Assembly: GCA_024401365.1 (NCBI GenBank)
Contig: JAKSLE010000008.1
Span: 80,823-144,822, forward strand
DNA: 64,000 bases
Direction: 5' to 3'
Source of the DNA: Bacteroidales bacterium
Lineage (GTDB): Bacteria; Bacteroidota; Bacteroidia; Bacteroidales; Marinilabiliaceae
Notes under the pieces: generated by a model
What the model was told of the DNA's origin: nothing
Database searches by the model: none
The model's input: the letters and a program-made list of their open reading frames with translations, nothing else
Shown: positions 37,206 through 62,861 of the stretch, piece after piece
How positions within the stretch are numbered: the first letter of the stretch is position 1
How the letters are laid out: every line of letters begins with the position of its first letter
Translations under genes and position numbers: made by a program

Positions 37206-37406
37206 ATGGAAACAAGACCATTAAATAGGATCAAAGTCGTACTGGCTGAAAAAATGGTTTCCAATAAGGAATTGGCAGAGAAACTAGGAAAAGACCCTGC
37301 GACTATTTCGAAATGGGTGACAAATACGTCCCAGCCTTCATTGGAGAATCTTATTGAGATTGCCAGATGTCTTGATTGCGAAATTAATGATCTTGTTAGA
37401 AAATAA
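37206..37406 (+). CDS. XRE-family helix-turn-helix regulator
   Basis: A 66-residue Cro/C1-type DNA-binding protein: [20 protein letters not shown] (helix-turn-helix), then [20 protein letters not shown]. It is a single-domain HTH protein of the kind often found as the first gene of restriction or defence operons, where it delays or limits expression. It lies 13 bases before the helicase gene on the same strand, so it is the likely controller of the whole 25.7-kb transcript. Confidence 0.85.
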
Positions 37407-37419
37407 AAAGAGGTGCAAC

Positions 37420-40212
37420 ATGATAAACTATTCTCCAGGACAACGAATAACTGTCCGTGGTGAGGATTTTCTCATCACTCGCGTGGAACGCAACCTTAAT
37501 GGTGCGCACCTCATTTATGTAAAAGGATTAAGCGAATTGGTTCGTAATCATAGTTTTGTTTTCGACACCGATTTGGACAAAAATATAGAAATAGTAAGTT
37601 CTTCTAATTCTGTTTTAGTTGGCGACGATGATCCTCGTTGGCGTAAGACTAGATTGCTGATAGAAACTGCTTTGCGTAGTAATGCATACTTTTCAAATAA
37701 GATTACTGTAGCGCATAATGGTGCATTTGATGTTGCTGAGTATCAAATGACTCCAACATTGAAGGCCTTTGAGTTGCCAAGACCGCGTTTGCTTATTGCT
37801 GATGGTGTCGGTTTGGGAAAGACTATCGAAGTCGGAATTTTCCTTGCTGAAATGATTCGTCGTGGTCGTGGCAAGCGTATTTTAGTGTGTGCATTAAAAA
37901 GTATTTTGGCGCAGTTTCAGGAGGAAATATGGAATAGATTCGCTATTCCTCTTGTACGCCTAGATAGTCTTGGCGTTGCTAAGATTCAGAATGAGATTCC
38001 ACTCAACAAGAATCCATTTGACTATTACGACAAGACCATCATATCTATCGATACACTCAAGAATAATGGTCGTTTTCGTGCCTGGCTCGAGAAGACTCAT
38101 TGGGATATTATCGTTATAGACGAATGCCATAAGGTAGCCAACGACGAGAGTCTGCGTGGCGATTTGGCGCAGTTCCTTGCACAGAAGTGCGACTCGATGA
38201 TTCTTACTTCTGCAACGCCTCATAATGGTTCAGCCGAATCGTTTGCCAATCTTATGCGTATGCTCGAACCTATCTCCATTCCTAGAAATGGTGAATATAC
38301 AAAGGAGCATGTAATGCCATATTATGTTCGACGATTCAAGAATGACATTGCTGATGAGCGCATACGTAGCCAGTTTCAAGAGCGTAAGGTGGTTTCTTTG
38401 GATGTGAAACTGACTCCACAGGAAGAAAACGTTTTGAGCATGCAACATGCTGAGTTTGTGAACTTGAACAATAGTGCCACTCACGATCCTTTGTTTGCTC
38501 TGACAGTGTTTAAGAGCTTTTTGTCGTCTCCAATGGCGGCATTAAAAACCTTGGAGGAGCGACAGAAAAAGGATGAGAACAGTGAATTGGAGAGTATTAT
38601 TGCGGATGTAGAAGCCCTTGTGACTTTCCGCATTGACTCAAGATACGAAGCGCTAAAGACAAAACTCCTGGACATTTGGTCAAAGAACAAGCAAGAGCGT
38701 ATTGTAATCTTCACCGAGCGTATTGTTACAATGAAGTATCTTGCAGAGCGTATCATGAAAGAGTTCGGCTTGAATAGCGATCAAGTGAAGCGTTTCGATG
38801 GCTCACTATCTGACACAGAGCAGGAGGAAATGGTAAGCGATTTTGCAAAAGAAGATAGCAAAGTTCGTGTATTCATCTCCAGCGATAGTGGTAGCCAAGG
38901 TGTCAACCTTCACTACTTCTGCCATATCATGTTCAATTATGACATACCATGGAGCCTCATTACACTAGAACAGCGTAATGGACGTATTGATCGTTATGGT
39001 CAGAAACAGACACCTGTGATTTATTACCTTGTGGCTAAGAGTGAACGAGAGGATCTTAAGACAGATTTCCGTATCATCGATAAGCTTCGTGATAAGGAGC
39101 AGGAGGTACACGACACTCTTGGCGATGCTATGAGCGTCATGGAGCTCTATAATGTGCAGAAGGAGGAGAAGGCCATTGGTGATATGCTTCAGGGTAAGAG
39201 AGATACGGATGTCATAGAGCCAGAGCCACAGCGACGTCGTCGTCCAATGGGCTTTAAGAAAGATGTTGAAAAAACTCCTGCCAAGGAACGCCTGTCGGAA
39301 AACATTTTTGAACCTCGTTTTTCGCTCTACAAGGAAGATATGGACTTTTACAAGGACCTGTTTGATGAACTCGAGGCAATCGGTAGCATTAAGCATGGAG
39401 ATGTAACCCTACGTGACGAAGCTACAGTTCCCTACGTCGAGATTAAGAATAATCAGGAATTACGTGAGGTACTGTATGATATACCATCAGAGGCATTCCC
39501 TCAAGACAATATATTCCGTTTGGCTACCGACAAGGCATGGCTCAACAAGTCGATAGCTGAGTCACGTAAGAGCACGAAGAGTGGTTGGAGCAAATTTTTG
39601 CCTCTCTATGACTTGCATCCCATTATTCAGTATCTGCTTACAAAGTTCACGGCTTCATTGCCTAAGACCCAAGCTATGTCTGTTCGTTCAACTGGACTCA
39701 CTAGAGGTATGAGTTATTATCTGTTCTATGGTAGCCATTGCAATGGGTTGGGGCAAAATCTCGTTAGCAAATTCTTTGTCGTGCCACTGAATACTGCAGG
39801 TGAAGTCAAGGAGGCACCTATGTCATTCCATGATTTTTGCGAGAAATATTCCATCCAGACGGGCTTCATGCATGGCTCGTCAAACAATAGTGATATAGAT
39901 ACCTTGCAAGCTAATTTGGAGCAGGCAATTCTATTTGGATTAAGCTACATGTATAATGCGCAGAATAAGACGAGTGCTGATATGGAGAAACAGTTGAATA
40001 TTTACAAGAAGAAACTGTCTGAGTGGGCAGATATTGCAAATTCACTGTTCCCCGACGAAGATGTGACGATAACTCGTACAAATCAATATAAGAAAGAGAA
40101 AGAAGAGATTCAGAAGATAACGGACAAATCAAGTCAGTTCTATCAAGATCTATTCTCTCTTGACGAAGCTGATCCATATATGCGCCTGCTTGCTGTTTTT
40201 CATAACATCTGA
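37420..40212 (+). CDS. SNF2-type helicase (DrmD-like)
   Basis: A 930-residue SNF2/RapA-like DNA translocase. Helicase motifs: Walker [15 protein letters not shown] (about 126-139), DECH box [22 protein letters not shown] (motif III), and the C-terminal [10 protein letters not shown] and [12 protein letters not shown] (motifs V-VI). The layout, including the N-terminal segment before the ATPase ([18 protein letters not shown]), resembles DrmD of class 1 DISARM. The start at 37420 has an AAGAGG-like site before it; an earlier in-frame codon lies inside the XRE gene and is rejected. It is followed after 13 bases by the AlbA_2 gene. Confidence 0.85.
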
Positions 40213-40225
40213 CTTTTAAACAAAA

Positions 40226-41731
40226 ATGAAAATATCTGCCGAACAAATAAAACTCTGGATTACTGAGGGTGAACACATTTCTATGGAGTTCAAACGTTCA
40301 CGCAAGTCGCTATCACGCTCAGCCTTCGATTCTATCTGCGCAATGCTCAACCGTGCAGGTGGTCACATTCTGCTTGGAGTCGAGGACGATGGAACAATTG
40401 AGGGTGTTGAGGATGCCAAGCAACAACAGGCGACACTCATCAAGGATATGAATAATGAGCAGCTGATTCGTCCTGCTATCTTTATGAACAATGAGATTGT
40501 GTCAGTTGATGGCAAGGATGTGATATGTATTACAGTGCCAGAGAGCAGACATATTCATACCTACAAAGGAAATATCTGGGACAGAAATGGTGAAGGCGAT
40601 TTCATCGTTAAGAGTGATGATGCCATAGCTATGATGGCTATACGCAAGCAAGATGGCTCTAGCGAAAATCGAGTTTATCCGCAACTGCGTTTCGAAGACT
40701 TCGACCCTGCCACTTTTACATATATGCGCAAGGAGATAGCACGTCGTAATCCTCATCATGCATGGCTATCCATGACTGATGATGAGATACTGCGTTCTCG
40801 TCGTATGTATCTGCGTGATCGGGAAGGCAATGAAGGATACACCATGGCTGCTGCATTGCTCTTTGGAGGTCCAATGGCATTGGGCATTGCTGGCAGAAAC
40901 TGCGTGTCCGATTTGCTATATCGCACCAAGCCAGACATGGTGCTTTACGATGATCGTCTAAAACTAGATTGTAACATACTCCAAGCATATAGTCAGATTT
41001 TTCAGTTCTGCGAGAAACATCTCGATGAGAAACCATATATCGGCAGTGACGGACAGCGTATCAGTCTGCGTAACGCTATTATGCGTGAGTGGATTATCAA
41101 CTTCCTCATCCACCGTGAATATGCCAATCCGTCTATTGCACGACTTATTATCACTCCGCAGAGCATCATGTCTGAGAATGCCAACCGCCCTCGCTACAAC
41201 ATGCATATCACGGTTGACCAGCTTCTCCCATTCCCAAAGAATCCTATCATAGCCAGCGTATTTCGCGAGATGGGATGGATAGAAGAGGTTGGTGCAGGTG
41301 CTACCACTTTCAAGAACTACTGTCCGCTGTTCTACGCAGGTCTTATGCCAGAGATAGAGGACGGTGATGATTTCCGCTGTACATTGAGGCTATATAAAGA
41401 AGAAAGTATCCAAGAAAGTAACCAAGATGACCATGTAAATGAACCTGTAGATAGTGAAAGCAACCAAGGTGACGGATTAAATGACGGATTAAATGACGGA
41501 TTAAATGACGGATTAAATTTATTATCATCTGAGGAGCACAACATTGTTATGTTGTTACTTAAATCGCCATCGATTACTTATGCTGATTTAGTAGATGTCA
41601 CCAAGCAATCAGACTCTACAATTACACGAATTCTTCGCCATCTTCGTCAACTCGGCATTCTCTCACGTAACGGCTCTAAAAAGACCGGCACCTGGGTAGT
41701 TTCCGAAAAATATAAACGTCCTAAGAAATAA
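40226..41731 (+). CDS. AlbA_2 / HATPase-type regulator-like protein with winged-helix tail
   Basis: A 501-residue protein of the COG2865 type. Residues about 10-130 are the AlbA_2 (Schlafen-like) domain: EGEHISMEFKRSRKSL and NRAGGHILLGVEDDGTIEGV. The middle (AIMREWIINFLIHREYANPS..GWIEEVGAGATTFKN, in parts) is the HATPase_c_4-like region. A four-residue repeat (NDGL x4) links to a C-terminal winged helix (SDSTITRILRHLRQLGILSR). Such proteins are abundant in Bacteroidetes defence islands; their role is unproven. It sits between helicase and methylase with gaps of 13 and 6 bases. Confidence 0.8.
   Translation: MKISAEQIKLWITEGEHISMEFKRSRKSLSRSAFDSICAMLNRAGGHILLGVEDDGTIEGVEDAKQQQATLIKDMNNEQLIRPAIFMNNEIVSVDGKDVICITVPESRHIHTYKGNIWDRNGEGDFIVKSDDAIAMMAIRKQDGSSENRVYPQLRFEDFDPATFTYMRKEIARRNPHHAWLSMTDDEILRSRRMYLRDREGNEGYTMAAALLFGGPMALGIAGRNCVSDLLYRTKPDMVLYDDRLKLDCNILQAYSQIFQFCEKHLDEKPYIGSDGQRISLRNAIMREWIINFLIHREYANPSIARLIITPQSIMSENANRPRYNMHITVDQLLPFPKNPIIASVFREMGWIEEVGAGATTFKNYCPLFYAGLMPEIEDGDDFRCTLRLYKEESIQESNQDDHVNEPVDSESNQGDGLNDGLNDGLNDGLNLLSSEEHNIVMLLLKSPSITYADLVDVTKQSDSTITRILRHLRQLGILSRNGSKKTGTWVVSEKYKRPKK
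41471..41518 (+). repeat. In-frame 12-bp tandem repeat, four copies
   Basis: Four exact copies of GACGGATTAAAT encode a repeated DGLN linker before the winged-helix domain. Gain or loss of units would keep the frame. Confidence 0.95.
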
Positions 41732-46711: not shown

Positions 46712-46728
46712 ATAAAAGAAGAATAAAT

Positions 46729-47859
46729 ATGAATAGGAAAGATTATATTGATGACTCTTGGGAAGAAAGAGAAGTTGATTCCCAAGAAGAATCTGTAGAC
46801 AATTTGAAAGGTCCGTTTGACCCTAATAATATAGATGTTGACATATCCACGGTTAATCTTGGTTCAATGCTTGAGCAGTTGGAGTATGGTGAGATAGATT
46901 TGCAGCCTGAGTTCCAACGAGCAAGTGGTGTGTGGACTGATGTAAAGAAGAGCCGTTTGATAGAATCAGTACTGCTTGGTCTTCCTTTGCCATCTTTCTA
47001 TTTCAGCGAGGATGCGACAACCAACAAACTGATAATCATTGATGGCTTGCAGAGACTGTGTTCTTTGAAAGAATTTTGTATAGACAAGACTCTTGTGTTG
47101 AATAATCTACAGTTTTTGACGAACTTAAATGGTGTCTCTTACGATGAACTGGACAGAACGCAAGTCAGACGGCTTAAGAGTCTTAAGATAACAATAAATA
47201 CGTTACGCAAACGTACTCCGACAAATGTGAAGTATGTTATCTTTCAACGTGTTAATACGGCAGGCGAACCATTGAATCCGCAAGAGGTTCGTAATGCTCT
47301 TTATCAGGGTAAGGCAACTCGGTTACTCAAGTCCATGGCAGCATTAGAGTCTTTCCGTATAGTAACCCGAAAAAAGGTTCCTACCAAACGTATGGCTGAC
47401 CGTGACTTGGTAAATAGATATTTGGCATTTTACCTCAAGAAGGATGTATATGATGGCAATTTGGATCAGTTTATGGGCGAAGTGACACTTGGATATATAA
47501 ATACATTGGATGACAAACAGGTTCAAAATATCCTTAATACATTTAAAAGTACGATGGATATATGCTGGGAACTGTTTGGTGACAAAGCATTTAGACGTCC
47601 TAATCCAAAGATAGAAGGAAAATATCTGAAACTCAACAAATCTATTTTTGAGGTTATTTCGGTTTCACTCGCATTGTTGACCAATGACGAGCAGTCAACG
47701 CTCATAAAGAAGAAAAAAAGTTTTATTTCAGAACTGGACAAATTGTTACGTGACGAACATTTTATCCAATCAATAACATCAGGTACAGCAAAAGTGCCGC
47801 AGGTGGAATATAGATTTAATAAAATTGATTTACTCATTAAAACTGTATTAGAACAATGA
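46729..47859 (+). CDS. DUF262 domain protein, short form
   Basis: A 376-residue DUF262 protein. Key segments: IDLQPEFQRASGVWTDVKKS, and IIIDGLQRLCSLKEF, where the usual DGQQRLTT reads DGLQRLCS. Then FQRVNTAGEPLNPQEVRNAL. There is no DUF1524 nuclease domain. The changed motif may mean altered nucleotide use. Its last four bases overlap the start of the DUF3696 ATPase gene (ATGA). This DUF262-ATPase pairing suggests a separate three-gene module with the next two genes. Confidence 0.85.
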   Translation: MNRKDYIDDSWEEREVDSQEESVDNLKGPFDPNNIDVDISTVNLGSMLEQLEYGEIDLQPEFQRASGVWTDVKKSRLIESVLLGLPLPSFYFSEDATTNKLIIIDGLQRLCSLKEFCIDKTLVLNNLQFLTNLNGVSYDELDRTQVRRLKSLKITINTLRKRTPTNVKYVIFQRVNTAGEPLNPQEVRNALYQGKATRLLKSMAALESFRIVTRKKVPTKRMADRDLVNRYLAFYLKKDVYDGNLDQFMGEVTLGYINTLDDKQVQNILNTFKSTMDICWELFGDKAFRRPNPKIEGKYLKLNKSIFEVISVSLALLTNDEQSTLIKKKKSFISELDKLLRDEHFIQSITSGTAKVPQVEYRFNKIDLLIKTVLEQ

Positions 47860-48968
47860 TAAACAAATTAGTATTAAAGGATTTCAAGATACATTCCAAT
47901 CTTGAGCTTCCACTTGGTGGTATTACCATTCTCACAGGACAGAATGGTATGGGCAAGTCTTCTGTTATGCAATCTTTGTTGTTGTTAAGGCAGTCATATA
48001 ATTCGTCGGGAATGATAAAGGGCATCAACCTGAAGGGTGACATGGTTGACCTGGGAAGCGCGAATGACGTTGAATGCAAGACTATAAGCAATGTCGAGCT
48101 GAACATCATGCTAACTGCCGATGAAAGCTTTGCTGATCTCCGTTTTTCTTATGATGTTGCTCCAGAAGATACGTTTCTTCCTGCGATTGACGACATGGAA
48201 TGGGATACGTTAAAGAATATCTCTTTATTCAACGAAAATTTTCAGTATATCAGCGCGTTTCGTTTAGGACCTCAGAAGGGATATGAGCGTGATACCAATA
48301 TTGTGCAGTATCAGCGACAGATTTCAAAGATTAACGGACAATGTGAGTATGCTGTTCATTTTCTTTCGTATTTTGGCAAGAGGATTCATTGTCTGCCAGC
48401 ATTGGTGCTTGATGACAAAACTGATGATTCACTGGAATCGCAGGTGCAAGCATGGATGCAGTTTGTTTCACCTCGTGTGAATATCAAGATAGAACCAGCA
48501 GGCGCAGACTTTAAGCTGAATTATAAGTTTAGCCGAGATGGGCAGCCTATGACGGATGAGATGGCGGCCGTTAATGTCGGATATGGCGTCACATACGTTC
48601 TCCCGATTTTGGTTGCCATCCTCAGTGCAAAGCCTGGCTCATTGATCCTCATTGAGAATCCAGAAGCCCACATTCATCCCAAAGCGCAGGCAGAACTGAT
48701 GAAACTCATTATGCGTGCTGTAGGAGCCGGAATCCAAATAATAATGGAAACACATAGCGACCATATTATGAATGGCGCTTTGGTAGCCATTGCTCAAAAT
48801 GAGGCTTATTTGGAATTAGTTAAAGCTTATTACTTTGAACGTGATGATGCGTCTCATACTTCTATTGCTCGTATGCTTAACATTATGAAGGATGGACGAA
48901 TAGTAAGTCCTCCAAAGGGATTCTTTGATCAGATTGATATTGATATGAGGTTATTAATGGGATTTTAG
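47856..48968 (+). CDS. AAA ATPase of the DUF3696 / OLD-like type
   Basis: A 370-residue SMC-like ATPase. Walker A ILTGQNGMGKSSVMQSLLLL (about 28-47), Walker B ILIENPEAHIHPKAQAEL near residue 265, and a H-loop IIMETHSDHIMNG. The C-terminal KDGRIVSPPKGFFDQID fits DUF3696. There is no TOPRIM nuclease, so it is ATPase only. It is translationally coupled to the DUF262 gene and followed after 4 bases by an unknown gene. Such ATPases often act as the sensor or motor of small defence modules. Confidence 0.88.
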   Translation: MINKLVLKDFKIHSNLELPLGGITILTGQNGMGKSSVMQSLLLLRQSYNSSGMIKGINLKGDMVDLGSANDVECKTISNVELNIMLTADESFADLRFSYDVAPEDTFLPAIDDMEWDTLKNISLFNENFQYISAFRLGPQKGYERDTNIVQYQRQISKINGQCEYAVHFLSYFGKRIHCLPALVLDDKTDDSLESQVQAWMQFVSPRVNIKIEPAGADFKLNYKFSRDGQPMTDEMAAVNVGYGVTYVLPILVAILSAKPGSLILIENPEAHIHPKAQAELMKLIMRAVGAGIQIIMETHSDHIMNGALVAIAQNEAYLELVKAYYFERDDASHTSIARMLNIMKDGRIVSPPKGFFDQIDIDMRLLMGF

Positions 48969-48972
48969 TTCT

Positions 48973-49839
48973 ATGGCTAAGAATGTTATCGCTTTAATAT
49001 TTCCAGAATATGATGACAAAGGCAACATCCTTACTTCGAAAGAATGGGAGGTTTCTAATTTGCCAAATGATTCTGTCTTAAAAGATTGGATTAAATCTCT
49101 ATATTATTTTATTGACTTCTACAAGTATGAAGGATGCGAGTTCATCTATGACTCAAAGAATGCTGACGCATGTATATTTATTGCTAAGGTGTTAGATGAC
49201 TGCTATCCTAATCTTGAAAGTTTCTTCCGTAGAGCATTATATGGAATGGCGAACTGGCGTACAAACAGAGTTTCGTCTGTAGATGATGAATATATGATAT
49301 ATAAATCCACTATTAAGGATGAAATGCGTACTGAGATTGCTGCACGTGAAGTATCGTGTCCGGACTCTAAATATGTAATTGCGGTTCACATTCCAGATTA
49401 CAAGCACAAGAAATGGGTGCTAAACAAGGAAGAAAATTACGTTGAAGTTACTGCATACCCTATGCTGATACCAGATATATTCTGTTGGCTTGCTGACAAT
49501 AGAATTCCGCCAAGAGTTTATAATTGGAACGAGAAGCATGGCGAAAACGGTGTCGGTGCTCATAAATCTCACAAAGGGGATGAGGTATCTGTCCTTCTGT
49601 GTTCAAGGGAACATGCGGAAGAGCTAATGCACAAAGCAATAGGGAATGACACGTTTGATGTCCTATACTGTTTTGATCCACAACATGGCAAATACATGGA
49701 ATACAAGCAGGATACTGTAAAAACGGACAAAGGAAATAACATCTTATCAAGAAGCTACCACTCTTTCCATATTGATGACGAGAATCGAGTTCCTCAAAAA
49801 GTAAAAAAAAGAATGGAACTTTTATCAAGTGAACGATAG
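48973..49839 (+). CDS. Unknown third protein of the DUF262-DUF3696 module
   Basis: A 288-residue soluble protein, no membrane segment. Notable segments: KYVIAVHIPDYKHKKWVLNK, RIPPRVYNWNEKHGENGVGA, and KGDEVSVLLCSREHAEELMH. I recognise no domain. Its spacing of 4 bases from the ATPase gene shows that it belongs to the same module. By position it could be the effector or a target-recognition partner; that is only inference. Confidence 0.65.
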   Translation: MAKNVIALIFPEYDDKGNILTSKEWEVSNLPNDSVLKDWIKSLYYFIDFYKYEGCEFIYDSKNADACIFIAKVLDDCYPNLESFFRRALYGMANWRTNRVSSVDDEYMIYKSTIKDEMRTEIAAREVSCPDSKYVIAVHIPDYKHKKWVLNKEENYVEVTAYPMLIPDIFCWLADNRIPPRVYNWNEKHGENGVGAHKSHKGDEVSVLLCSREHAEELMHKAIGNDTFDVLYCFDPQHGKYMEYKQDTVKTDKGNNILSRSYHSFHIDDENRVPQKVKKRMELLSSER

Positions 49840-49850
49840 TCCTTTGTGTT

Positions 49851-49961
49851 ATGAATAAGCAGTTCGGTGTAAAGTTCGGTAAAAAGTTCGGTGATAACAC
49901 CCTACTAATTACTTGTCAAGACAATGAATACAAAGGATTGTGGGTGACAAACAGAAATTAA
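49851..49961 (+). pseudogene. 36-codon relic with a KFG linker repeat
   Basis: ATG at 49851 gives MNKQFGVKFGKKFGDNTLLI and stops at 49961, 6 bases before the STAND gene. Three 12-bp units of AAGTTCGGTnnn form a KFGx repeat, the same kind of linker that COG2865/AlbA_2 proteins carry before their winged helix. It may be the leftover of another such gene, or a tiny leader frame. Confidence 0.35.
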
Positions 49962-49967
49962 TAGGTT

Positions 49968-52900
49968 ATGAAGATAATGCCAACATGGGATAGCTTTCGA
50001 GCAAAATATCCTTCTGAAGAAATTCAAAGAGCAAGGTTTGAAGATCTTGCCCGAGCATTGTTTTGTCATAGATTTGATATCAAATATGGCATATTTCAAT
50101 ATGTGAACCATGCTGGCAATGAAACCAATACGGTTTGTGTTGGTGATGAAGTCATTGGATTTCAGGCGAAATACTTTAAAGATGAAATAGATGATCAGAA
50201 TATAATACATTCCATAACAAAAGCCAAAAGCAGGAATCCTGAACAAACCAAAATAATCATATTTACCAATCTTACTTTTGGCAATCCACCAAAAGGTCAG
50301 CAGATGACTTCAAAGCAAAGGAAAATTGAAGATGCAGCTGTCGCAAATGATTTAACTTTGGAATGGTCAATGGATACAATGATTCTTGACCAAGTGGCTC
50401 CTTCTGATTGGATATATGATGTCTTCTTTGGTACGGAACCAAATCTTATGACATTTTTGAATGAGGAAAAGGATAATACTGCACGTATTCTACAACCTAT
50501 TAAAAGCCAAATTATTCATAATAATCATGAGATTAAGGTTAATCGGAATCTCCAAATAGAGACTATTAAAAATGCTATAAATGCTCATAATCATATAATA
50601 TTGCATGGAGAAGGTGGATGTGGAAAAACTGCAATCATAAAAGATATATATAATGAAATCGGCATAGATATAGCGTTTTGTATTAGAAAAGCTCAATCTT
50701 TAAAGGGCTTATCACTGAATGAGATATTTAGATTGACCAATAACTATTCTGCAAAGCATTTTGTGAATCTGTTTAAAGATACGGAGTACAAAGTGTTTGT
50801 TATTGATTCGGCTGAACGACTTCAAGAGATTGAGGACCAAACGACTTTGTTCAATCTGGTTAATCTTCTCATTGAAAATGATTGGTCTATAGTATTTACT
50901 GTACGTAACAACTATCTATCGGATTTGTGCTATGAACTGGAGGCTATTAATCCTGTTAATTTTCAATGCGTATCAGTTGATAATATTTTAGAAAAGGAAT
51001 TAGGTGAATATGCTATTAACAATCAGATAGTTCTCCCAGAAAACTCCTTTTTTAGAGAAAGATTGTGTAATCTTTTTTATTTAAACCTATATATACGATA
51101 CTATGATAATGTATCGGCAAAAAGTTCTTACAATCAATTTATAGACTTTGTATGGGTAGAAAAAATCACTAGTCGTCTAAAACTGAATGGAATAAATTTC
51201 AAAAGAGAAAATTGTTTTAAGGAATTAATAAAGGACAGAATAATGTCTGGTGCATTTTTCCTTAACTATGACAAACTTGATGGAGAAGCTTTACAAGCAT
51301 TAGTAAGAGATGAGATTATAGGAGAGAGTAATAATGGAGTCTTCATTACCCATGATATATACGAGGAATGGGGAGTCTTGAAATTTATAGATAACTGTTG
51401 GAGAAGAAGACAAAATGTACTAGACTTTTTCTCTAACCTTGGGACAACTTTTCTTGTTAGAAGAACATTTAGACAATGGCTAACGGATAATATAGATAAG
51501 AGTAAAGACTGTATATCCGAAATATTAGAGCTGATAACTAATGATATTGTTGAAAGTATATGGCGTGATGAAATTGTTGTGGCAATACTTTTATCGACAT
51601 ATTGTGAGGCTTTTTTACAGGATATTGAAAGTAAACTAGTAGAAAAAGATTCTTCGTTGTTAAAGCGATTAACATATTTATTGTTGATAGCATGTAAACG
51701 CTATGATAGGACTGTAAACGTAAAAGGAGAGGAATATCATATCTATATGCCTTATGGGCAGGGATGGAGTGCTTTTATCAATTGGATTTACGCACACAAA
51801 GATCATGATATAAGCATTCCAAACAAAGTTAATATTATATATGAGTGGACTCTGTATAATAAAGTGGGAGATACTACCCGATATGCAGGCCTTATTGCTC
51901 TTGATATATTATCACAAACAGAAAATGGTGTTAGAATTTATGATAGTTCTTTGAAGGAAAGATTGTGCCAAGTAATATGTAACTCTGCAAATGTAATGAA
52001 AGAAGAGTTGTCAATGTTGCTTGACAAAATAAACGAAAACAAATGGGTTAAACACAATGACCCCTACAATGCACTTTCGTTATATATTCTCACACGACCA
52101 AAATACGCTCAAAATCTGATATTTTCAGTTCCAGGAAAAGTTTTGGATTTAGCAAAACTCTATTGGATATCAGAAGAAAATAAAGAAGATGATGATGTAT
52201 ATCGACATAGAAGTACAATAGATATAGAATATCAATTTGGATTACGAGATTTTGAATTTAGAAACAACTATTCTCCGGCAGGTGCGGATCAATCTCCTGT
52301 TTATACTCTTCTGTGTGCATCTCCGCAAAGTACAGTCGACTTTATTGTTGAATTGATAAACTATAGTATTGAGTATTATTATACATCTGCAAATACATTA
52401 AATGATATCGATGAAATAGACGTTTATCACAAAGGAACAGTAACAAAACAATTAGGTAGTTATTATTTGTGGAGTATATATCGAGGTGCGATTCATATTA
52501 CTATTCCATGTCTATTGCAATCTATACACATGGCATTGGAAAAGTATTTAATGGAGTTAGACAAAACTAATGTTGGTTTTGTTAAAACGATCTTAGATTA
52601 TATACTATTAAAGAGTCGAAGTGTCTCTCTGACAGCGATCGTGGCAAGTATTGTAATGTATAATCCTGACCGCTATTGGAGATATGCACTTGATTTGTTC
52701 AGGACAAAAGAACTGTTCGATTATGATTCTACTAGATGTATGGATGAGAATGATCATTCATGGTTAATTGGAATGGATGCGTGGTCGGACCAAAATATAG
52801 CGCAAGAACGTAGCGATAGTGCAAATTTAGATTTCAGAAAGCAAAACCTTGAAGCTATTTGTGTTAGATACCAGTATTTTCGGACAAGCAACTTGACTGA

Positions 52901-54608
52901 AGAAGACAGTAATTATATCGTAAAAGAGATACACAATATTATTGACATTCACTATGAGAGAGCAAAAACATTTAACCCCAATGAAAGAAACTTATATGAG
53001 ATATTGTTGTATCGAATGGATAGGAGGACTCACAAACCGCAGGTGTCTGAGTACAATGGACAGACTTGTATAGAGTTATGCCCTCAGTTGCCTCAAAAGC
53101 TTAAAGAGTATAGTGAAAAAGGAATTGAAAGGGGACAAAAGCCAATGAGGTTTAGTTTTTTGCATACATGGGCATATAAAAAGTTGCGTCATGAAGACTC
53201 ATCTGTTTATGTGGATTATGAGAATAATCCTTCATTTATTATAAAAACTATCAAGGAACTAAATGAAGCAATCTCTAATGGAGAAGAATTACTCCCTTTA
53301 GATGAATATTCAAAATATGCAGCCACAGGAATTCTTGTCCGTGATTTTTACGACGAGCTCACGGATGAAGAATTGATTTATTGTGTCTCAATCATAGATG
53401 AGATGTTAGAAAAATATTTGTCTGACTCTTATTCTCCACAGATGTCAGACGGATTAGAATGCTGCGTACATGCACTTCCAACTTTATTTATGAAAAATTC
53501 AAATGTCATAAACAAATACGGACAATTACTTATAGATATATTGTTAGATAAAACAGCAATTGGCCAGTATAAACGAATCTGTGATTATGCAATAGAAAGT
53601 ATTCAGGAAGCAAATCTGTGGAGTACTCATTATGAGATGATGAGTTCATTATTGGAAGATTATGTTAAAGCAATAAACATTGTTGACAAATTAATACAAG
53701 AGGAAATCTGTAATACAAGAAGAAATCACATTTGGGGAATTCCATCGTATTCAAAAGAGACAATAAGAACACTTGTTCACGATTTCATATCCTCTACTAA
53801 ATCTATATGTATCAATAAATCAAATGATTTAGAAAGATTAGAAATTCTTTTAGAACTCATTCCCGCAGACACAAAAGAGCCTATACTGCAGAACTATGTT
53901 AAGGAGACGCTACCTTACATAGCAAATTCGTTAAAAGAAGATAGGAATAACAGATATAATAGAGTAATTTATCTGTATAAAGCTTTTGCTCATTTTGTTC
54001 TCAATAGGGATATTGAGGATATAGAAGGATATATTCTTCCATTGTTAAGTTCGGTAAATGGCGAAAAAAATACCGAGTATTTTCTTTTAGAGTTTATATA
54101 TACAGAAGACAGACTGAATAAACCTGAGAACTTCTGGCATGTTTGGAAGCTCTTATACAAAACAGTTACTGAACGTGGAGTATGGTATAATGGTCGAGTT
54201 CTGGGTATATATATGCTGACAGATCACATGGCTTTAGACGAAGGTAAATGGCGTAGTTTCAATAAAGGAAATACATGGTTATTTGACAAATTGTCAATAG
54301 ATTGCGGGCGAGAACCAATAGTTATGTTTTCTATCGCGAAATCTCTGAACGGATTGGCAAATGACTATATCGAACAGGGTATAGAATGGTTTTATAGAAT
54401 TGTTCATAAGTATTCAGCAATTGAATTAAGGGACTATCAGAGTAATACTATTTACTATATGGAGAAATTATTTAGTAAATACATTAGACAAAATAGAATG
54501 ACAATTAGAAGTAATAATATGAAGAAGCAAAAGATAATAGATATTCTATCTTTCATGGTAGAACGTGAATCCGTACAAGCGTATATGCTTCGTGAATATT
54601 TAGCTTAA
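49968..54608 (+). CDS. Nuclease-STAND NTPase, Avs-like
   Basis: A 1546-residue protein. Residues 1-120 look like a Mrr-type PD-(D/E)XK nuclease: E25 in ARFEDLARALF, D60 and Q66-x-K68 in GDEVIGFQAKYF, then IIIFTNLTFG. A P-loop IILHGEGGCGKTAIIKD follows (about 210-226) with a Walker-B-like VFVIDSAERLQ (about 276-286). The remaining 1200 residues are helical and repeat-like with no known motif. Effector-STAND-long sensor is the architecture of Avs (AVAST) and other NLR-like phage sensors. It is visibly richer in A/T than its neighbours, which suggests separate acquisition. It sits 15 bases before the large helicase gene. Confidence 0.72.
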   Translation: MKIMPTWDSFRAKYPSEEIQRARFEDLARALFCHRFDIKYGIFQYVNHAGNETNTVCVGDEVIGFQAKYFKDEIDDQNIIHSITKAKSRNPEQTKIIIFTNLTFGNPPKGQQMTSKQRKIEDAAVANDLTLEWSMDTMILDQVAPSDWIYDVFFGTEPNLMTFLNEEKDNTARILQPIKSQIIHNNHEIKVNRNLQIETIKNAINAHNHIILHGEGGCGKTAIIKDIYNEIGIDIAFCIRKAQSLKGLSLNEIFRLTNNYSAKHFVNLFKDTEYKVFVIDSAERLQEIEDQTTLFNLVNLLIENDWSIVFTVRNNYLSDLCYELEAINPVNFQCVSVDNILEKELGEYAINNQIVLPENSFFRERLCNLFYLNLYIRYYDNVSAKSSYNQFIDFVWVEKITSRLKLNGINFKRENCFKELIKDRIMSGAFFLNYDKLDGEALQALVRDEIIGESNNGVFITHDIYEEWGVLKFIDNCWRRRQNVLDFFSNLGTTFLVRRTFRQWLTDNIDKSKDCISEILELITNDIVESIWRDEIVVAILLSTYCEAFLQDIESKLVEKDSSLLKRLTYLLLIACKRYDRTVNVKGEEYHIYMPYGQGWSAFINWIYAHKDHDISIPNKVNIIYEWTLYNKVGDTTRYAGLIALDILSQTENGVRIYDSSLKERLCQVICNSANVMKEELSMLLDKINENKWVKHNDPYNALSLYILTRPKYAQNLIFSVPGKVLDLAKLYWISEENKEDDDVYRHRSTIDIEYQFGLRDFEFRNNYSPAGADQSPVYTLLCASPQSTVDFIVELINYSIEYYYTSANTLNDIDEIDVYHKGTVTKQLGSYYLWSIYRGAIHITIPCLLQSIHMALEKYLMELDKTNVGFVKTILDYILLKSRSVSLTAIVASIVMYNPDRYWRYALDLFRTKELFDYDSTRCMDENDHSWLIGMDAWSDQNIAQERSDSANLDFRKQNLEAICVRYQYFRTSNLTEEDSNYIVKEIHNIIDIHYERAKTFNPNERNLYEILLYRMDRRTHKPQVSEYNGQTCIELCPQLPQKLKEYSEKGIERGQKPMRFSFLHTWAYKKLRHEDSSVYVDYENNPSFIIKTIKELNEAISNGEELLPLDEYSKYAATGILVRDFYDELTDEELIYCVSIIDEMLEKYLSDSYSPQMSDGLECCVHALPTLFMKNSNVINKYGQLLIDILLDKTAIGQYKRICDYAIESIQEANLWSTHYEMMSSLLEDYVKAINIVDKLIQEEICNTRRNHIWGIPSYSKETIRTLVHDFISSTKSICINKSNDLERLEILLELIPADTKEPILQNYVKETLPYIANSLKEDRNNRYNRVIYLYKAFAHFVLNRDIEDIEGYILPLLSSVNGEKNTEYFLLEFIYTEDRLNKPENFWHVWKLLYKTVTERGVWYNGRVLGIYMLTDHMALDEGKWRSFNKGNTWLFDKLSIDCGREPIVMFSIAKSLNGLANDYIEQGIEWFYRIVHKYSAIELRDYQSNTIYYMEKLFSKYIRQNRMTIRSNNMKKQKIIDILSFMVERESVQAYMLREYLA

Positions 54609-54623
54609 AATAAATAATACGAT

Positions 54624-57600: not shown

Positions 57601-60600
57601 TTTCTCCACGTGTTCATGCTCATGAACATACAGGATTGTTAGAGCGACATGACAGAGAAGAACTTGAAAAAGACTTCAAACAGCATCCTCATAGCAATTC
57701 GACTAATGTTCTAAGTGCTACATCAACATTGGAAATGGGTATCGACATTGGCGACTTGAATGTTATGGAAAATACCAACGTTCCACCTAAACCGAGCAAT
57801 TTCCTCCAGCGAGTAGGACGTGCCGGTCGTAAAGAAGGTTCTGCTTTGGTGTTGAACTATGCTCATGCAGGTGAACCTCATGATATGTATTATTATGAGT
57901 ACCCATTGGAAATGATGCAAGGTGAAGTGAACACGCCTGGTTGTTTCCTTGAAGCAAAGGACATACTCCGTCGTCACTTCCTTGCTTATTGCATAGATAC
58001 ATGGACAACGGCTGATGTGGCGAATACACTTCCAAGCAATATTCGGGATCTTCATTTGCTGAATGATAACATATTCAATGATGAAGCGTTCATTCTTAAT
58101 AGGATCATTGCATTCATCAAGAATAACAAGGCTTCTTTACGTTCAGCATTCTGCGAACAGTATGAGGAAAAGACCCAACCTGCGCTCGGTAAGTTGTTTG
58201 AAACACTGGATGATGGTACTTTCTATAATAGACTTATTAGTGAGTTTGCTATGCTCACGGATCGTCTGCATCATCTGGGAAAAGAACTTGAAGAGTTCAA
58301 CAATCAGAAGAAACGAATTCAGGCAAATGATCCTGCTCTCAAACAGATTGATGAACTCATTAAAGCGATAAAGAAGCAGTATGGTCAGATTATGAGTGAG
58401 AGTATGATTGAGTATATGACCAACGTAGGTCTGTTGCCAAATTATGCTTTCCCAGAAACTGGTGTTAAGTTACAAGCTAATGTCTATGCCTCACGAGCAA
58501 AAGAAGATAAGGAAGGCAATGTGGCTGAGCCCAAAACGTTTGAACTTACTCGTTCTGCTTCTCAAGGCATCAAAGAACTTGCTCCAGGCAACAACTTCTA
58601 TACCCAGAAATATAAGCTTAATGTGAGTGGATTGAATACTTTCGACTGGAAGGATTCCTTGACAGTAATGAAATTCTGCTCAAAATGTGACTGTGTGTCT
58701 CTGAAGGGTGAATCTGGATTTGAGGATGCTTCTTGTCCTAAATGTAATGATCCGTCATGGGGTGTCAACAGTCACCCAATTCTTAAATTCACAGGGGCAA
58801 GAAGCATTATGCATAGCAATGAAGCGGCTCTTGATGACTCCAGCGAAGATCGTGATAACGAGAATTACATTATAAAAAGACACTACATGTTCCACCATAC
58901 GGGGGCTACAACCTCGTATGCAATCAGAGGTGTCGGATTCGGAATAGAGTTCTGTAACAATATGGAGCTTTATGAAGTGAATTATGGTATGCAGATGCAG
59001 TCTGGAAGCAAGGTTGAAGTGGATAATGACTCAACTGTTTCTCAGAATGGATTTGTCACCTGTCGTCATTGCGGTAAATCCACGCCAATCATGAGTGGAG
59101 TTAAAGTTGAAGACCAACATTATAAGTTCTGTACACACAAAGATACAGCATTTGCCGATGATAGGGATGGCAATGTATTTGAGACTCTTTATCTATATCG
59201 TCAGATGCAGACAGAGGCAATAAAGATATTGCTCCCAATCCAGATTATGGATGCAAAATCAGCTGTGGAAATGTTCAAGGCAGGCATAGAACTTGGAATG
59301 AAAGCTTACTATAAGTCTTCTCCTGAGCATATCCGCATAGACTCATATACTGAAATGAACCTTGCAACTATGCAAAAGGATCATTATCTTGTAATGTATG
59401 ATACAATTCCAGGAGGTACTGGCTATCTTTCTAAATTATATAACACAGAAGAGTTCTCTACCGTACTAAAATTGGCATATGACAAAATACATGATTGTCA
59501 ATGCCAATGGGAAGGAAAAGATGGCTGTTACCATTGCATCCTTACTTATGGAAATCAGTATAAGCGAGATGCATTTAGCCGCGAAGCAGCTGAAGCACTA
59601 TTTGAAAAGCTCATCAGTCATGCTAACTCATGGGAAACCCTTTCTGGCTCAGTTGGAACAATATCACAATCCGGCGTAGCAGAGGATAGCGAACTGGAAT
59701 TAAAGTTTGTTGGTGCGTTGAAAACAGTATGCCGTAACAATAGTTGGTCATTTGAGAAAGTTCCTGATGCAGACAGTTATCGTTACGATATGCATATCAC
59801 AGATGGTGATACTGATATTCGTTATTATATAATACCACAGTTTGCTCTCGGAGGACATTATGGTGTTAGAAACTACACCGTTGCAGATTTCCAGATAATA
59901 TGCATGTCGGCAACCATCAATGGGATTCCTGTAAATAATGTCGAGAAATTACCTATGTGGGCAATCTTCCTTGATGGCTACGCATTTCATGCTCAGTCAC
60001 CAAATATGCGATTCTATGGTGACAAAGAGAAACGTGACGGCATTCGCAATTCGTTGACTCACAATCTCTATTCTTGGACTCTCACATGGGAAGATATTCT
60101 CCTTTTTGAAAACGAAAAGGATGATTCTCTCGAATTGAACTCAGTGACTCGTTTGATTGAATTACTGAAGAATCCACAAGAAGGAAATCTGAAAGAAACT
60201 GCATTTGGCTGTATCGCTAACGCAGAGAATTTCATGGGATTCGGTGGCTCTTTATACCAAGGCGAAATTACTATAGATGATAGTTGCTACGACACTCTTA
60301 CAGATAATTCAACTGATGAGGAAGTAGCAAATGCCTTGGATAAAGCTATTACTTACGATTGGCATCTACAGCAGGTACACCTTAACATTGATAAGGAAGA
60401 ATGGGTAGGATTCTGGCGTAGATATAATCTCCTTCAGTTCTTCTCAAACCAGCCTGCAATTCCTGCAGTTTCTTCAACTGTTGAAGTGGATAGAGACGAA
60501 GTAAAAATGTATTATCCAGGCTTAGAGGATATTGTTGACCAGTTACTGGATAACAACATCGAGTTCGGACTTGAAGGTGATGTTGACCTTACGGATGCTG

Positions 60601-60755
60601 ATGGTATTGTATTAGCTTCGGCTGGAATGCTTATCAGAGAGTCTATGATTGCTATTGATCCGACAGATGATAATTCTACTGCTACTTTAGAATCAGCAGG
60701 ATATAAAATAATTTATTCTGATAACTTTGATATTAACGATATAAAAATCAAATAA
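54624..60755 (+). CDS. Giant DEAD/DEAH helicase with DUF1998-type C-terminus (DruE-like or fused DrmA/DrmB-like)
   Basis: A 2043-residue superfamily 2 helicase. Walker A TTGTGSGKTECFL (about 102-114), DELH box VLDELHTYDGAQGTD (about 240-254), GTSATIG, and the distal SATSTLEMGIDIGDLN and FLQRVGRAGRKEG. Zinc-binding-like clusters are spread along it (CRDCGASGW, CPECNGGD, CDTCQSRLC, CRHCGKST). The C-terminal CQCQWEGKDGCYHCILTYGNQ (in part) is the DUF1998 cysteine signature. Size and layout fit DruE of Druantia; it also equals DrmA and DrmB of DISARM in one chain. It is 3 bases before the UvrD-like gene. Confidence 0.82.
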   Translation: MLPLQQAREVRDSVIEYIKATFRFKEKDVSDAFYRFIEDKENGLFKGPYVSLKTPFVSATEEESSNIPLDIAPSFPPYKHQLQAFHQLSMMNGHKPEPTLLTTGTGSGKTECFLYPILDYCYHCNQYERQTGVKVIIMYPMNALASDQAKRLAETIWNDPRLKGKVTAGLFVGEGVDAKEYPRDMAEDHIIENRDAILDTVPDILLTNFKMLDYGLMRQRFMSLWKGNIDTDEKALRFIVLDELHTYDGAQGTDVANLIRRLKLKLNLPKASLCPVGTSATIGSGDDSKKRLCEYATNVFGERFDEKNVIEEHRIPVDEYIDAVTMGIPDGKLIKECVFGNNDTVESYIKRLCKYWLKKSDATPVEAGQILRRMGIVRDLLNALKDGILTLDELQNRLEDNAEFRRLRQQYTDKTCGIAIENLLALIAYAKRPLSSTKTIPMLYLQVQLWQRELSGVLRYVQKEPEFTWRGSIKTDEDRVALPMYFCRDCGASGWISRRLATDDRFCSDVRTINMAFASKEKEVVLLNTEMKRHEAVDDYISENATNVTLHVRMKDLTEASVSDSDTIRLRVCSKSSSNKNGNQKFMRTCPECNGGDTICQIGGRTSTLSSVAISQVLSSDFDNANADDRKILVFTNSVQDAAHQAGFYEARTYRFLFRQSMQKYINTLSEPINLVDLQKGFKEYWHEQLTDEEYYNRFLPADLAKSIDLRKNYRVAGEGSDFMDSFKNEFELRVDWEILSEFALTAQLGRTLEKTGASASFFKQELLSEVHTKMTDWLKDNAMERIGENESLFIHFIYGVLQRMRTHGAVDHPYLEKYRKENLNQWALNWQWDGRHFLNKQLGGSMQFPKLVGTIHTGKNHEMLDMAIMRGDSKQTWYSNYFIEVFEDPWIGKNSALFNDFMRKLLDTMVEVGLLNREEQGGGNYAIKPENIWISNKVKHIQCDTCQSRLCVAVQDTLAEGTHCLDYKCKGTYSEETKPELNYYQQVYNRNLSPRVHAHEHTGLLERHDREELEKDFKQHPHSNSTNVLSATSTLEMGIDIGDLNVMENTNVPPKPSNFLQRVGRAGRKEGSALVLNYAHAGEPHDMYYYEYPLEMMQGEVNTPGCFLEAKDILRRHFLAYCIDTWTTADVANTLPSNIRDLHLLNDNIFNDEAFILNRIIAFIKNNKASLRSAFCEQYEEKTQPALGKLFETLDDGTFYNRLISEFAMLTDRLHHLGKELEEFNNQKKRIQANDPALKQIDELIKAIKKQYGQIMSESMIEYMTNVGLLPNYAFPETGVKLQANVYASRAKEDKEGNVAEPKTFELTRSASQGIKELAPGNNFYTQKYKLNVSGLNTFDWKDSLTVMKFCSKCDCVSLKGESGFEDASCPKCNDPSWGVNSHPILKFTGARSIMHSNEAALDDSSEDRDNENYIIKRHYMFHHTGATTSYAIRGVGFGIEFCNNMELYEVNYGMQMQSGSKVEVDNDSTVSQNGFVTCRHCGKSTPIMSGVKVEDQHYKFCTHKDTAFADDRDGNVFETLYLYRQMQTEAIKILLPIQIMDAKSAVEMFKAGIELGMKAYYKSSPEHIRIDSYTEMNLATMQKDHYLVMYDTIPGGTGYLSKLYNTEEFSTVLKLAYDKIHDCQCQWEGKDGCYHCILTYGNQYKRDAFSREAAEALFEKLISHANSWETLSGSVGTISQSGVAEDSELELKFVGALKTVCRNNSWSFEKVPDADSYRYDMHITDGDTDIRYYIIPQFALGGHYGVRNYTVADFQIICMSATINGIPVNNVEKLPMWAIFLDGYAFHAQSPNMRFYGDKEKRDGIRNSLTHNLYSWTLTWEDILLFENEKDDSLELNSVTRLIELLKNPQEGNLKETAFGCIANAENFMGFGGSLYQGEITIDDSCYDTLTDNSTDEEVANALDKAITYDWHLQQVHLNIDKEEWVGFWRRYNLLQFFSNQPAIPAVSSTVEVDRDEVKMYYPGLEDIVDQLLDNNIEFGLEGDVDLTDADGIVLASAGMLIRESMIAIDPTDDNSTATLESAGYKIIYSDNFDINDIKIK

Positions 60756-60758
60756 TAT

Positions 60759-62861
60759 ATGAGACTTTTTCTTTCAGATACGTGCTATGAACCACTATTT
60801 GCTCTTCCTAAGAAGATACAGACTAAGGTGGTAAACTTCCAAAAGAAGTTCCGTGAATGTACAACTGCAAATGGTATGCATTTGGAACCAATAGCTCAGT
60901 TTAATGACGACTCAATGCGTACTGCTCGTATTGATGATAACTATCGTGCAGTTATCGGACTTATTGATGATAATGCCTACCTCCTTTATGTAGGAACCCA
61001 TGAGAACGCCTATAATTGGGGTATTCGCAAGAAACTGGTATGGAATGACCACACTCAGGCTTGTCAACTTGTAACCATATATCAGACAACTGAGACAGTC
61101 GTGAAGACCGAGCATAAGGCAGAGGAAGAGAGCTATCCGTTCAGCGGCATAACAACGGAGAAATGGCTAAAGATTGGAGTCCCACAGGACTTGATAGAGC
61201 AGGTCTCTCTCATAAAGTCGCTCGATGACCTCGATCCTCTGGAAGAGTACCTCCCAACTGATGCATTTGAGAACATCTACAATCTCCTTGACGGCATTGA
61301 CATCGACGAGATCATTGAAGAGATAGAGGAAGGACAGGCGAAGGCTAATGAAGACCAGCTTCTCAGCAACAATAACAAGCGCCGCTTTGTCGAGTTGACT
61401 GACGATGACGCCCTGCAGCGCATCCTGGACAATGATATGGACAAGTGGCAACTTTTCCTTCACCCTTCACAGCAGAAACTTGTAGATGCAGACTATAAAG
61501 GAACAATGAAGGTCAGTGGTGGTGCAGGTACAGGAAAGACTGTCGCAGCACTTCATCGATTGAAGCATCTTAGTGAGGATCCAAACGCAAAGATTCTTTT
61601 TACAACATACACAAGAACTTTGAGAGAGAACTTGGATGAGCTTGTAAAAAAAATGGATATCAATCACTCCCGTTGCACATTGAATAACATTGACCAAGTA
61701 TTAATCGAGACTGCACGTGTATACAAAATCAAAGAAGGGTATAAGATTCTTGACTACTCTGGAGACGAAGAATCGTTGAAGTTGTGGAGAGAGGTTCTGG
61801 AAACGGAAGTGACTGAATTTGACGAACAGTTCCTATATGATGAGTATATCGACGTTATAGTGTATTTTGGAAATACAGATTCTAAATCGTATATGCTTCA
61901 GCAGCGAGTAGGTAGAACTAAAGCTCTGAGTCGTAAACAACGTTTGGATATATGGAAATTAGTTGAAAAATATGTGGCTCTTAAACAGGAACGAAAGGTC
62001 GTTGATCGTCTGGAGTTGTTCAATGAAACTACCAAGTATCTTAATGACAATAATGTACGTCCATATACAAACGTTATAGCTGATGAGTTCCAGGACTTCT
62101 CAAATCCTGAACTTAAGTTCCTTCGTGCATTAGTTGCAGAAGGAAGAAATGACCTTTTCCTAACAGGTGATCCTATGCAGCGAATATATAGCGGTCGAAA
62201 GATTAATTTTGGCGCTGCGGGTATAAATGTTCGAGGAGTTCGTAGTAAGAGACTAAAGATCAACTATCGAACAACAGAACCTATCAAGAAAGTCGCTGTC
62301 GGAGTTATAAAAGGGCAAGCTTACGATGATATGGATGGAGGTACAGAATCCATGAAGGGTTACGTATCTCTCATTCACGGAGGAGAAAAGCCTGTTTACA
62401 AGATCGTAGGCAATGCTTCCGAAGAAGTTAGCCAGATTATAGAATGGATAGAAGAGTGCAAGCAGAGTAGCATTGAGTTAAAAGATATCTGTATAGCAGC
62501 ACCAAGCATGGGTATGATGAAAGAACTTCAAACCCGTTTACATACTGATGGTACGGAATACAAAGTATTAAAAGGAACATCCAAGCAAGGTTCTCAAAGT
62601 GGTATTTCTCTTTGTACTCTTCATTCATTGAAAGGTCTTGAGTTTAAGGTTGTAATACTGATGGGTGTAAACGAACGCAACATCCCATCCAAGGCGACTG
62701 ATGGTTATCCTTTCAGTGGTATGGATGCGTTGGATGTAAAGGAATTCCTTTCTTCCAAAAGGTCTTTGCTATACGTCTCAATCACTAGAGCCCGTCAGCT
62801 AGTATTTATGGTTGGCTATGGTGAACCATGTGGATTAATTAGTCAATTGATAAACGGATAA
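60759..62861 (+). CDS. UvrD/Rep-type helicase with RelE/ParE-like N-terminal domain
   Basis: A 700-residue protein. Residues 1-95 resemble the RelE/ParE toxin fold: TARIDDNYRAVIGLI then YLLYVGTHENAYNW, the usual strand pattern of these small RNases. A helical linker (about 100-240) follows. Then a superfamily 1 helicase: Walker A VSGGAGTGKTVAAL (about 252-265), IADEFQDFSNPEL, LFLTGDPMQRIYSG, STLKGLEF-like LHSLKGLEFKVVIL and VSITRARQLVF. It closes the operon. A toxin-like domain on a helicase could be an effector or a protein-contact module; its catalytic residues are not evident to me. Confidence 0.85.
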   Translation: MRLFLSDTCYEPLFALPKKIQTKVVNFQKKFRECTTANGMHLEPIAQFNDDSMRTARIDDNYRAVIGLIDDNAYLLYVGTHENAYNWGIRKKLVWNDHTQACQLVTIYQTTETVVKTEHKAEEESYPFSGITTEKWLKIGVPQDLIEQVSLIKSLDDLDPLEEYLPTDAFENIYNLLDGIDIDEIIEEIEEGQAKANEDQLLSNNNKRRFVELTDDDALQRILDNDMDKWQLFLHPSQQKLVDADYKGTMKVSGGAGTGKTVAALHRLKHLSEDPNAKILFTTYTRTLRENLDELVKKMDINHSRCTLNNIDQVLIETARVYKIKEGYKILDYSGDEESLKLWREVLETEVTEFDEQFLYDEYIDVIVYFGNTDSKSYMLQQRVGRTKALSRKQRLDIWKLVEKYVALKQERKVVDRLELFNETTKYLNDNNVRPYTNVIADEFQDFSNPELKFLRALVAEGRNDLFLTGDPMQRIYSGRKINFGAAGINVRGVRSKRLKINYRTTEPIKKVAVGVIKGQAYDDMDGGTESMKGYVSLIHGGEKPVYKIVGNASEEVSQIIEWIEECKQSSIELKDICIAAPSMGMMKELQTRLHTDGTEYKVLKGTSKQGSQSGISLCTLHSLKGLEFKVVILMGVNERNIPSKATDGYPFSGMDALDVKEFLSSKRSLLYVSITRARQLVFMVGYGEPCGLISQLING

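Follow-up and report, generated by a model that had tools for sequence, protein, structure and literature searches.

A predicted ARMADA type II operon of Bacteroidales with other defence systems in its armB–armC slot

Introduction

How does a single run of genes come to carry parts that elsewhere belong to several anti-phage systems, and do these parts form one machine or several? The question is raised by a locus of a Bacteroidales bacterium (Marinilabiliaceae; contig JAKSLE010000008.1). The DNA analysed (hereafter the window) is a stretch of 64,000 nucleotides at the end of this 144,822-base contig, which belongs to a draft genome of 3.05 Mb. Positions 37206–62861 hold ten complete ORFs on the plus strand, in the order given in Table 1, with adjacent genes overlapping by 4 bp or lying 3–128 bp apart. 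An initial annotation had described ten one-strand genes behind an XRE gene; the ten ORFs are there, but the XRE gene is one of them, so that nine follow it. The same annotation regarded the locus as a composite of helicase, methylase and STAND parts, and possibly as an undescribed variant or a new system.

ARMADA II, Menshen, Avs4 and the nesting of one defence system within another are already known. Payne et al. are said to have described, in a 2024 preprint, defence candidates embedded in Hma. According to the article texts, TgvAB lies inside a type I R-M operon (PMC11411939), DarTG2 sits between hsdS and hsdR (PMC12255303) and backup nucleases occur inside BREX loci (PMC12839542); defences nested in other defence operons also appear in PMC12988326.

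Table 1. Features of the operon in the window, and defence systems recognized in the armB–armC slots of other loci
Feature	Position or locus	Strand	Evidence
XRE-type regulator, 66 aa, first gene of the operon	37206–37406	+	NCBIfam HTH repressor models, matches under cut-offs
armA, SNF2/RapA (BrxHII/DrmD-like) helicase, 930 aa	37420–40212	+	PADLOC, Pfam, NCBIfam; identity to E. coli ArmA
Schlafen-type AlbA_2 protein, 501 aa, optional accessory between armA and armB	40226–41731	+	SLFN_AlbA_2, 73.1 bits
armB, PglX-like adenine methylase, 1657 aa	41738–46711	+	PADLOC REase_MTase_IIG, 1407 bits; identity to E. coli ArmB
Cargo slot armB–armC, 7,912 bp (nsnA, nsnB, nsnC, avs4)	46712–54623	+	Gap measurement
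nsnA (Menshen), DUF262/GmrSD_N-like	46729–47859	+	PADLOC NsnA, 388.0 bits; GmrSD_N, 77.9 bits
nsnB (Menshen), OLD/SMC-like ATPase	47856–48968	+	PADLOC NsnB, 329 bits; Walker A present
nsnC (Menshen)	48973–49839	+	PADLOC NsnC, 122.7 bits
avs4, STAND protein, 1546 aa	49968–54608	+	PADLOC Avs4, 1208.1 bits, residues 3–1544; Walker A present
armC, YprA/DruE-like helicase with MZB (DUF1998), 2043 aa	54624–60755	+	DEAD, Helicase_C and MZB matches; identity to E. coli ArmC
Vsr-like C-terminal tail of ArmC, residues 1930–2043	60411–60752	+	Sequence profile, structure model, fold comparison
armD, UvrD (GajB-like) helicase, 700 aa	60759–62861	+	PADLOC and Pfam; RelE-like N-terminus by homology only
Zorya I cargo	L106 (outside the 59 resolved loci)		ZorA 848, ZorC 772, ZorD 1502 bits; relatives in L099
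Zorya II cargo	L123		ZorA 703 bits
Mokosh cargo	L116		MkoA 1732, MkoB 370 bits
Tiamat-like cargo	L067		906 bits
PifA cargo	L117		706 bits
DrmD cargo	L098		854 bits
PtuA cargo	L060		406 bits
AbiEii cargo	L074, 2-kb slot		345 bits

Identity of the outer genes

ARMADA type II was defined in a 2025 preprint (PMC12458937), the main text of which describes a BrxHII-like SNF2 helicase (ArmA), a PglX-like methylase (ArmB), a YprA helicase (ArmC) and a RelE–UvrD helicase (ArmD), encoded in strict order, with examples from E. coli NCTC 12900 and ATCC 8739. The four-gene set of E. coli is reported there to suffice for defence and to protect against 13 of 80 phages without signs of abortive infection. Judged by sequence comparison, the outer genes of the window are ARMADA type II. 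As reference we used an E. coli plasmid locus (L053) carrying a Zorya–Druantia–ARMADA array, in which the residue numbers of the preprint land on the expected letters. The window proteins share 34.4% (ArmA), 38.5% (ArmB), 33.4% (ArmC) and 34.7% (ArmD) identity with their counterparts in this locus, and ArmB aligns over its full length with seven relatives. The Walker A lysine and Walker B aspartate are conserved in ArmA, ArmC and ArmD, as are the asparagine of NPPW and the glycine of the SAM motif in ArmB; all eight residues (K136, D236; N971, G605; K110, D234; K266, D454) whose mutation lowered or abolished defence in E. coli, according to the main text of PMC12458937, are identical in the window. 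The relative order A-B-C-D is likewise conserved. The difference from E. coli lies in contiguity, which is broken in the window by an AlbA_2 gene between armA and armB and by nsnABC and avs4 between armB and armC; the main text of the preprint calls the order strict and makes no mention of inserted cargo. Since the outer gene set recurs across many genomes, the arrangement is not due to chance.

The annotated UvrD helicase with a RelE-like domain stood in its UvrD part, which Pfam recognizes; the RelE part gave no Pfam or NCBIfam match at E ≤ 0.001, and a RelE-like N-terminus is tentatively assigned to the window ArmD by homology to E. coli ArmD and the description in PMC12458937. The start of armA is probably at 37420 rather than at 37354, to judge from the sequence. 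Of 68 loci examined, 10 carry a relative of the XRE regulator immediately 5′ of armA (BLAST, E ≤ 0.01). An alignment of seven upstream stretches yielded no convincing common motif, and the Bacteroides-type promoter pattern, matched 12 times in the window against 9.2 expected, does not occur directly 5′ of the operon.

The names that PADLOC gives to the helicases point elsewhere, and could suggest that the locus is not ARMADA but a divergent form of DISARM class 1, of Druantia or of Hma. ArmA matches DrmD best (312.7 bits) and HmaA less well (182.2 bits), and ArmC, with its MZB zinc domain, is DruE-like (366.5 bits). However, the NCBIfam score of ArmA for DrmD (336.6 bits) is far under the cut-off of that model (610), and the listed PADLOC matches of the operon genes (the best 25 where lists were long) include no DrmB, DrmC, DruA–D, DruH, PglZ, HmaB or HmaC. 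DISARM class 1 was accordingly rejected for lack of DrmB and DrmC among the listed matches and for the low DrmD score, Druantia because the DruE-like helicase has none of its DruA–D or DruH partners among them, and Hma because the HmaA match stands there without HmaB and HmaC. As the complete set, its order and the key residues all fit ARMADA II, we regard membership of any of these three systems as extremely improbable. The initial annotation had anticipated much of this: its calls of a DrmD-like helicase, a large adenine methylase, a DruE-like helicase with DUF1998 and an AlbA_2 protein agree with our matches, as do the absence of DrmC, DruA–D and PglZ from those listed and the view that DISARM, Druantia and Hma are relatives of the locus, none of which it matches exactly.

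Compared with the closest relative of the window locus, that of Bacteroides gallinarum (L071), residues 1000–1500 of ArmB are 49–71% identical, and the first 800 residues 82–91%; the variable region looks, on this alignment, as if it were an exchanged or fast-evolving target-recognition part. ArmB found no match in phage records at E ≤ 1e-30.

The inner block and the accessory gene

By profile matches, the inner block consists of NsnABC, which we take to be Menshen, and Avs4, both of them known systems. The adjacent nsnA, nsnB and nsnC genes each match their own PADLOC model and the Avs4 match spans the whole protein (Table 1); what sets these copies apart is their site inside ARMADA. The locus is thus composite, as first annotated, with an outer ARMADA II set and an inner NsnABC/Avs4 block. 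The suggestion of a new system, in turn, fails by the refuting condition that had been set alongside it, the outer set being published ARMADA II (main text of PMC12458937) and the inner block fitting existing NsnA, NsnB, NsnC and Avs4 models. None of the four inner proteins has a similar slot protein in the other loci at E ≤ 1e-3.

The AlbA_2 protein also matches HATPase_c_4 and MarR, both under the cut-off, and AlbA_2-like proteins are encoded within or beside the operon in five other loci (L062, L117, L140, L073 and L078). The text of PMC12839542 reports, from at least 1017 taxa, Schlafen proteins that combine a minimal histidine kinase with a wHTH and are linked to BREX loci and their relatives.

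Position of inserts across ARMADA type II loci

In a second Bacteroidales locus (L039), a Tiamat-like protein of 1809 aa and a helicase are encoded at the armB–armC junction. Loci were collected with an ArmB alignment of eight sequences led by the window protein, and are hence drawn by ArmB similarity to it; 79 came from genome_contigs (best 80 of at least 531 confirmed stretches), and searches with ArmD and ArmC in source genomes (40, then 16), together with further stretches, completed loci. The genes armB, armC and armD were resolved in 59 loci, comprising 49 from genome_contigs, five from plasmids, four from viral contigs and the window. Gaps of at least 1 kb separate armB from armC in 36 of the 59, as against 3 of 57 for armA–armB and 1 of 59 for armC–armD; in the genome_contigs loci taken separately, the corresponding counts are 34/49, 2/47 and 1/49. 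Fisher tests on the junction gaps (p ~4e-11 and ~3e-13) are descriptive, the loci being related and not randomly drawn. Loaded armB–armC junctions were found in 16 of 19 loci from Bacteroidota versus 20 of 40 from all others. Across ARMADA II loci, the armB–armC junction appears to be the preferred site for cargo, which seems to be a new observation. Nesting that recurs from locus to locus in this way is invisible to the reader of one window. The sole locus with a large armC–armD gap (L122, 10.3 kb) has an armB–armC gap made up mostly of short ORFs.

Such a preference might be passive. Foreign DNA may simply be least harmful at a seam between two half-operons, A-B and C-D, and be kept for its own value without functional ties to ARMADA. 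In two rearranged loci, one with the order C-D-A-B (L055) and one in which C-D is divergent from A-B (L128), the pairs A-B and C-D are still intact, and this points to a seam between half-modules; a third, with the order B-C-D-A (L042), fits this poorly. In the 36 loaded slots, however, 93 ORFs of at least 150 aa are co-directional with the operon and 8 opposed, and co-directional ORFs cover a median of 0.96 of the slot; the cargo is also closely spaced, the first gap being at most 150 bp in 25 of 33 slots and the last in 28 of 33. Moreover, where the slot is shorter than 300 bp (19 loci), the genes are packed as closely at the armB–armC junction as at the other two (medians of 1.5, 14 and −4 bp for the three), and therefore free space does not explain the choice of slot. 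A purely passive seam is a serious contender to which we give somewhat less than even chances.

Cargo of the slots

We consider it probable that the window locus is an anti-phage operon of the ARMADA II type and serves as a chassis whose armB–armC slot houses other defence systems. Of 26 slots of at least 4 kb (L097, L109 and L122 being left out of the PADLOC scan), 23 encode one or more proteins that match PADLOC models, in 13 cases by direct scanning and in 10 through a scanned BLAST homologue. Zorya, Mokosh, Tiamat-like, PifA, AbiE, Septu-like and GmrSD-like types are recognizable (Table 1), although not every match is strong or complete (that in L089, for instance, scores 74 bits). The slot of L109 encodes a UvrD helicase, and relatives of Zorya I and Zorya II lie together in that of L099. 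The diversity of these families, which are known to function alone, would also be expected of a passive seam.

In seven loci (L039, L058, L060, L063, L064, L076 and L084), a TmtA-like gene is paired with a downstream SF1 helicase gene, and the Tiamat-like cargo may be a two-gene system in ARMADA slots. Another recurring group is a four-gene set common to L066 and L096, which includes an Hsp70-like protein of 850 aa (positions 17690–20242 and 4655–7207, respectively) and is preceded in L066 by two extra genes.

Turnover of the cargo

In a FastTree phylogeny of 58 ArmC proteins, at least 11 switches between loaded and empty slots are required. ArmC of the window is 80% identical to that of B. 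gallinarum, and the cargo of the two is unlike, NsnABC and Avs4 in the one, SIR2-like and Mokosh-like proteins in the other; the next locus on the tree, from Prevotella ihumii (L065), has an empty slot. Sister loci differ as well: L099 and L123 in their cargo, L098 and L116 by carrying DrmD and Mokosh, respectively, and L113 and L121 by a Zorya II cargo as opposed to an empty slot.

These comparisons bear on whether all ten proteins, including Nsn and Avs4, constitute one obligate machine, a new composite system. Their single strand, close spacing and intact motifs would fit this. Yet the outer set commonly recurs without the inner block, in ARMADA II loci whose slot is empty or differently filled (a check foreseen in the initial annotation), the nearest relative carries unrelated cargo, and in E. 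coli the four-gene set is enough for defence according to the main text of PMC12458937. One obligate ten-gene system was rejected on the strength of the recurring loci, and we hold it to be highly improbable.

In E. coli, a 2-kb query across the armB–armC junction matches 519 of 5,426 genomes, 475 with at least 80% of the query in one place; of the 25 matches listed, 24 run uninterrupted across the junction, and the remaining one is a 3% side match. As the E. coli junctions among the matches listed look empty, the slot is not used by every lineage. This may also be why the order is described as strict in the main text of PMC12458937.

A C-terminal domain shared by ArmC and cargo proteins

Some cargo proteins, as well as E. 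coli ZorE, end in a small Vsr-like domain that is also found at the C-terminus of ArmC. Besides ArmC, the carriers include ZorE, helicases of the UvrD and SF1 types, a GmrSD-like protein and a small protein of the B. gallinarum locus; NsnABC and Avs4 of the window lack the domain. Residues 275–354 of E. coli ZorE match the ArmC-tail profile with 47.8 bits (E 5.7e-13, 7,954 ORFs). Neither a Foldseek comparison of the tail model with the PDB nor a search of its sequence against PDB sequences gave a significant or convincing match. The small B. gallinarum protein (246 aa, L071 positions 16910–17650) ends in the ArmC tail; its N-terminal part matched no family.

The distribution of the tail bears on the passive-seam explanation from both sides. 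In ARMADA genomes, most copies outside ArmC are on slot proteins (4 of 4 in one set; 5 of 8 in another, with 2 more in the same island), which argues against it. Over loci L058–L136, in contrast, the enrichment near armB is weak: among ORFs of at least 100 aa, the tail is present on 5 of the 156 inside slots and on 3 of the 389 outside them (Fisher p = 0.047), a count that includes by hand two slot proteins first taken for ArmC and otherwise becomes 3/154 versus 5/391 (p = 0.69). Tailed ZorE also occurs away from ARMADA, as a passive seam would allow. Of ten plasmid records with the ZorE tail, four from E. coli also carry ARMADA, and the other six (five Vibrio, one Pseudomonas putida) are not among the best 20 of 275 ARMADA plasmid matches; in two of these six, a 37-kb Vibrio stretch and the whole P. 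putida plasmid, tblastn gave no hit to ARMADA proteins. The ZorE-like cargo proteins are full-length relatives of ZorE (38–45% identical), and the tail is therefore a feature of this group of ZorE proteins and was not gained with ARMADA.

The C-terminal nuclease-like extension of Druantia-associated ZorE has been discussed in a 2026 preprint (PMC13192584), the text of which assigns it to no family, relates it to Druantia III and links it to Zorya–Druantia synergy, a stable ZorE–Druantia complex not having been detected. Here, the same region matches the ArmC-tail profile. The tail may be a recruitment or shared-substrate module.

Proposed model and relation to nested defences

The chassis reading, which we favour, builds on what the present analysis observed directly, namely the composition of the locus, its intact motifs, the position of the slot, the co-orientation of the cargo and its turnover; direct, non-abortive protection is described in the main text of PMC12458937 for E. 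coli ARMADA II only. ArmB methylation would mark host DNA as self, and the motors ArmA, ArmC and ArmD, together with the putative nuclease domain of ArmC, would be the first to act, striking incoming DNA directly. To judge from their families, NsnABC, Avs4 and the AlbA_2 protein probably form a second layer that fires once direct restriction fails, and the whole gene set is probably co-transcribed behind the single XRE regulator. Across bacteria, the slot is filled and emptied time and again. The ArmC tail may tie cargo proteins to ArmC or to the DNA on which it acts.

It is tempting to extend this into a general statement: ARMADA II would be a chassis whose slot collects whole defence systems across phyla, a portable Vsr-like tail would allow carriers as different as ZorE, the helicases, the GmrSD-like protein and the small protein to act on ArmC or on its DNA structures, and the ZorE extension would belong to the same module family. 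We advance this wider proposal tentatively, and think it rather unlikely to hold in full.

With the defences embedded in Hma, type I R-M and BREX loci, as far as their texts describe them, the window shares the nesting of one system in the operon of another. The differences are the host operon, ARMADA; the single preferred junction, here quantified against two others; and the extent of the cargo, which can amount to entire systems of several genes (one slot has both Zorya I and Zorya II). In the article texts searched, we found no mention of the ARMADA cargo slot or of the link between ArmC and ZorE tails. If the slot is functional, ARMADA loci would provide a map for defence-gene discovery, with the armB–armC proteins that have no library match as candidates, and would explain the patchwork look, in other lineages, of a system described as a strict four-gene operon. 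A domain common to ArmC and cargo would give concrete, testable ground for the cooperation of co-encoded systems, and the tail match relates the ZorE extension, left without a family in the text of the 2026 preprint, to a known protein.

Neighbouring elements

Upstream of the operon, on the minus strand, the window contains two tandem GmrSD_N (DUF262) pairs (8646–12794 and 15328–19333), distant relatives of the DUF262 cargo pairs in L082 and L089. A Fic protein and an IetA-like AAA protein (19446–22834) are encoded between this region and the core genes; an IetA-like protein occurs as ARMADA cargo in L075, too. Directly after armD lies a MITE-like element of about 155 bp (63008–63162) with 21-nt terminal inverted repeats (90%), of which the genome holds one further copy, 88% identical.
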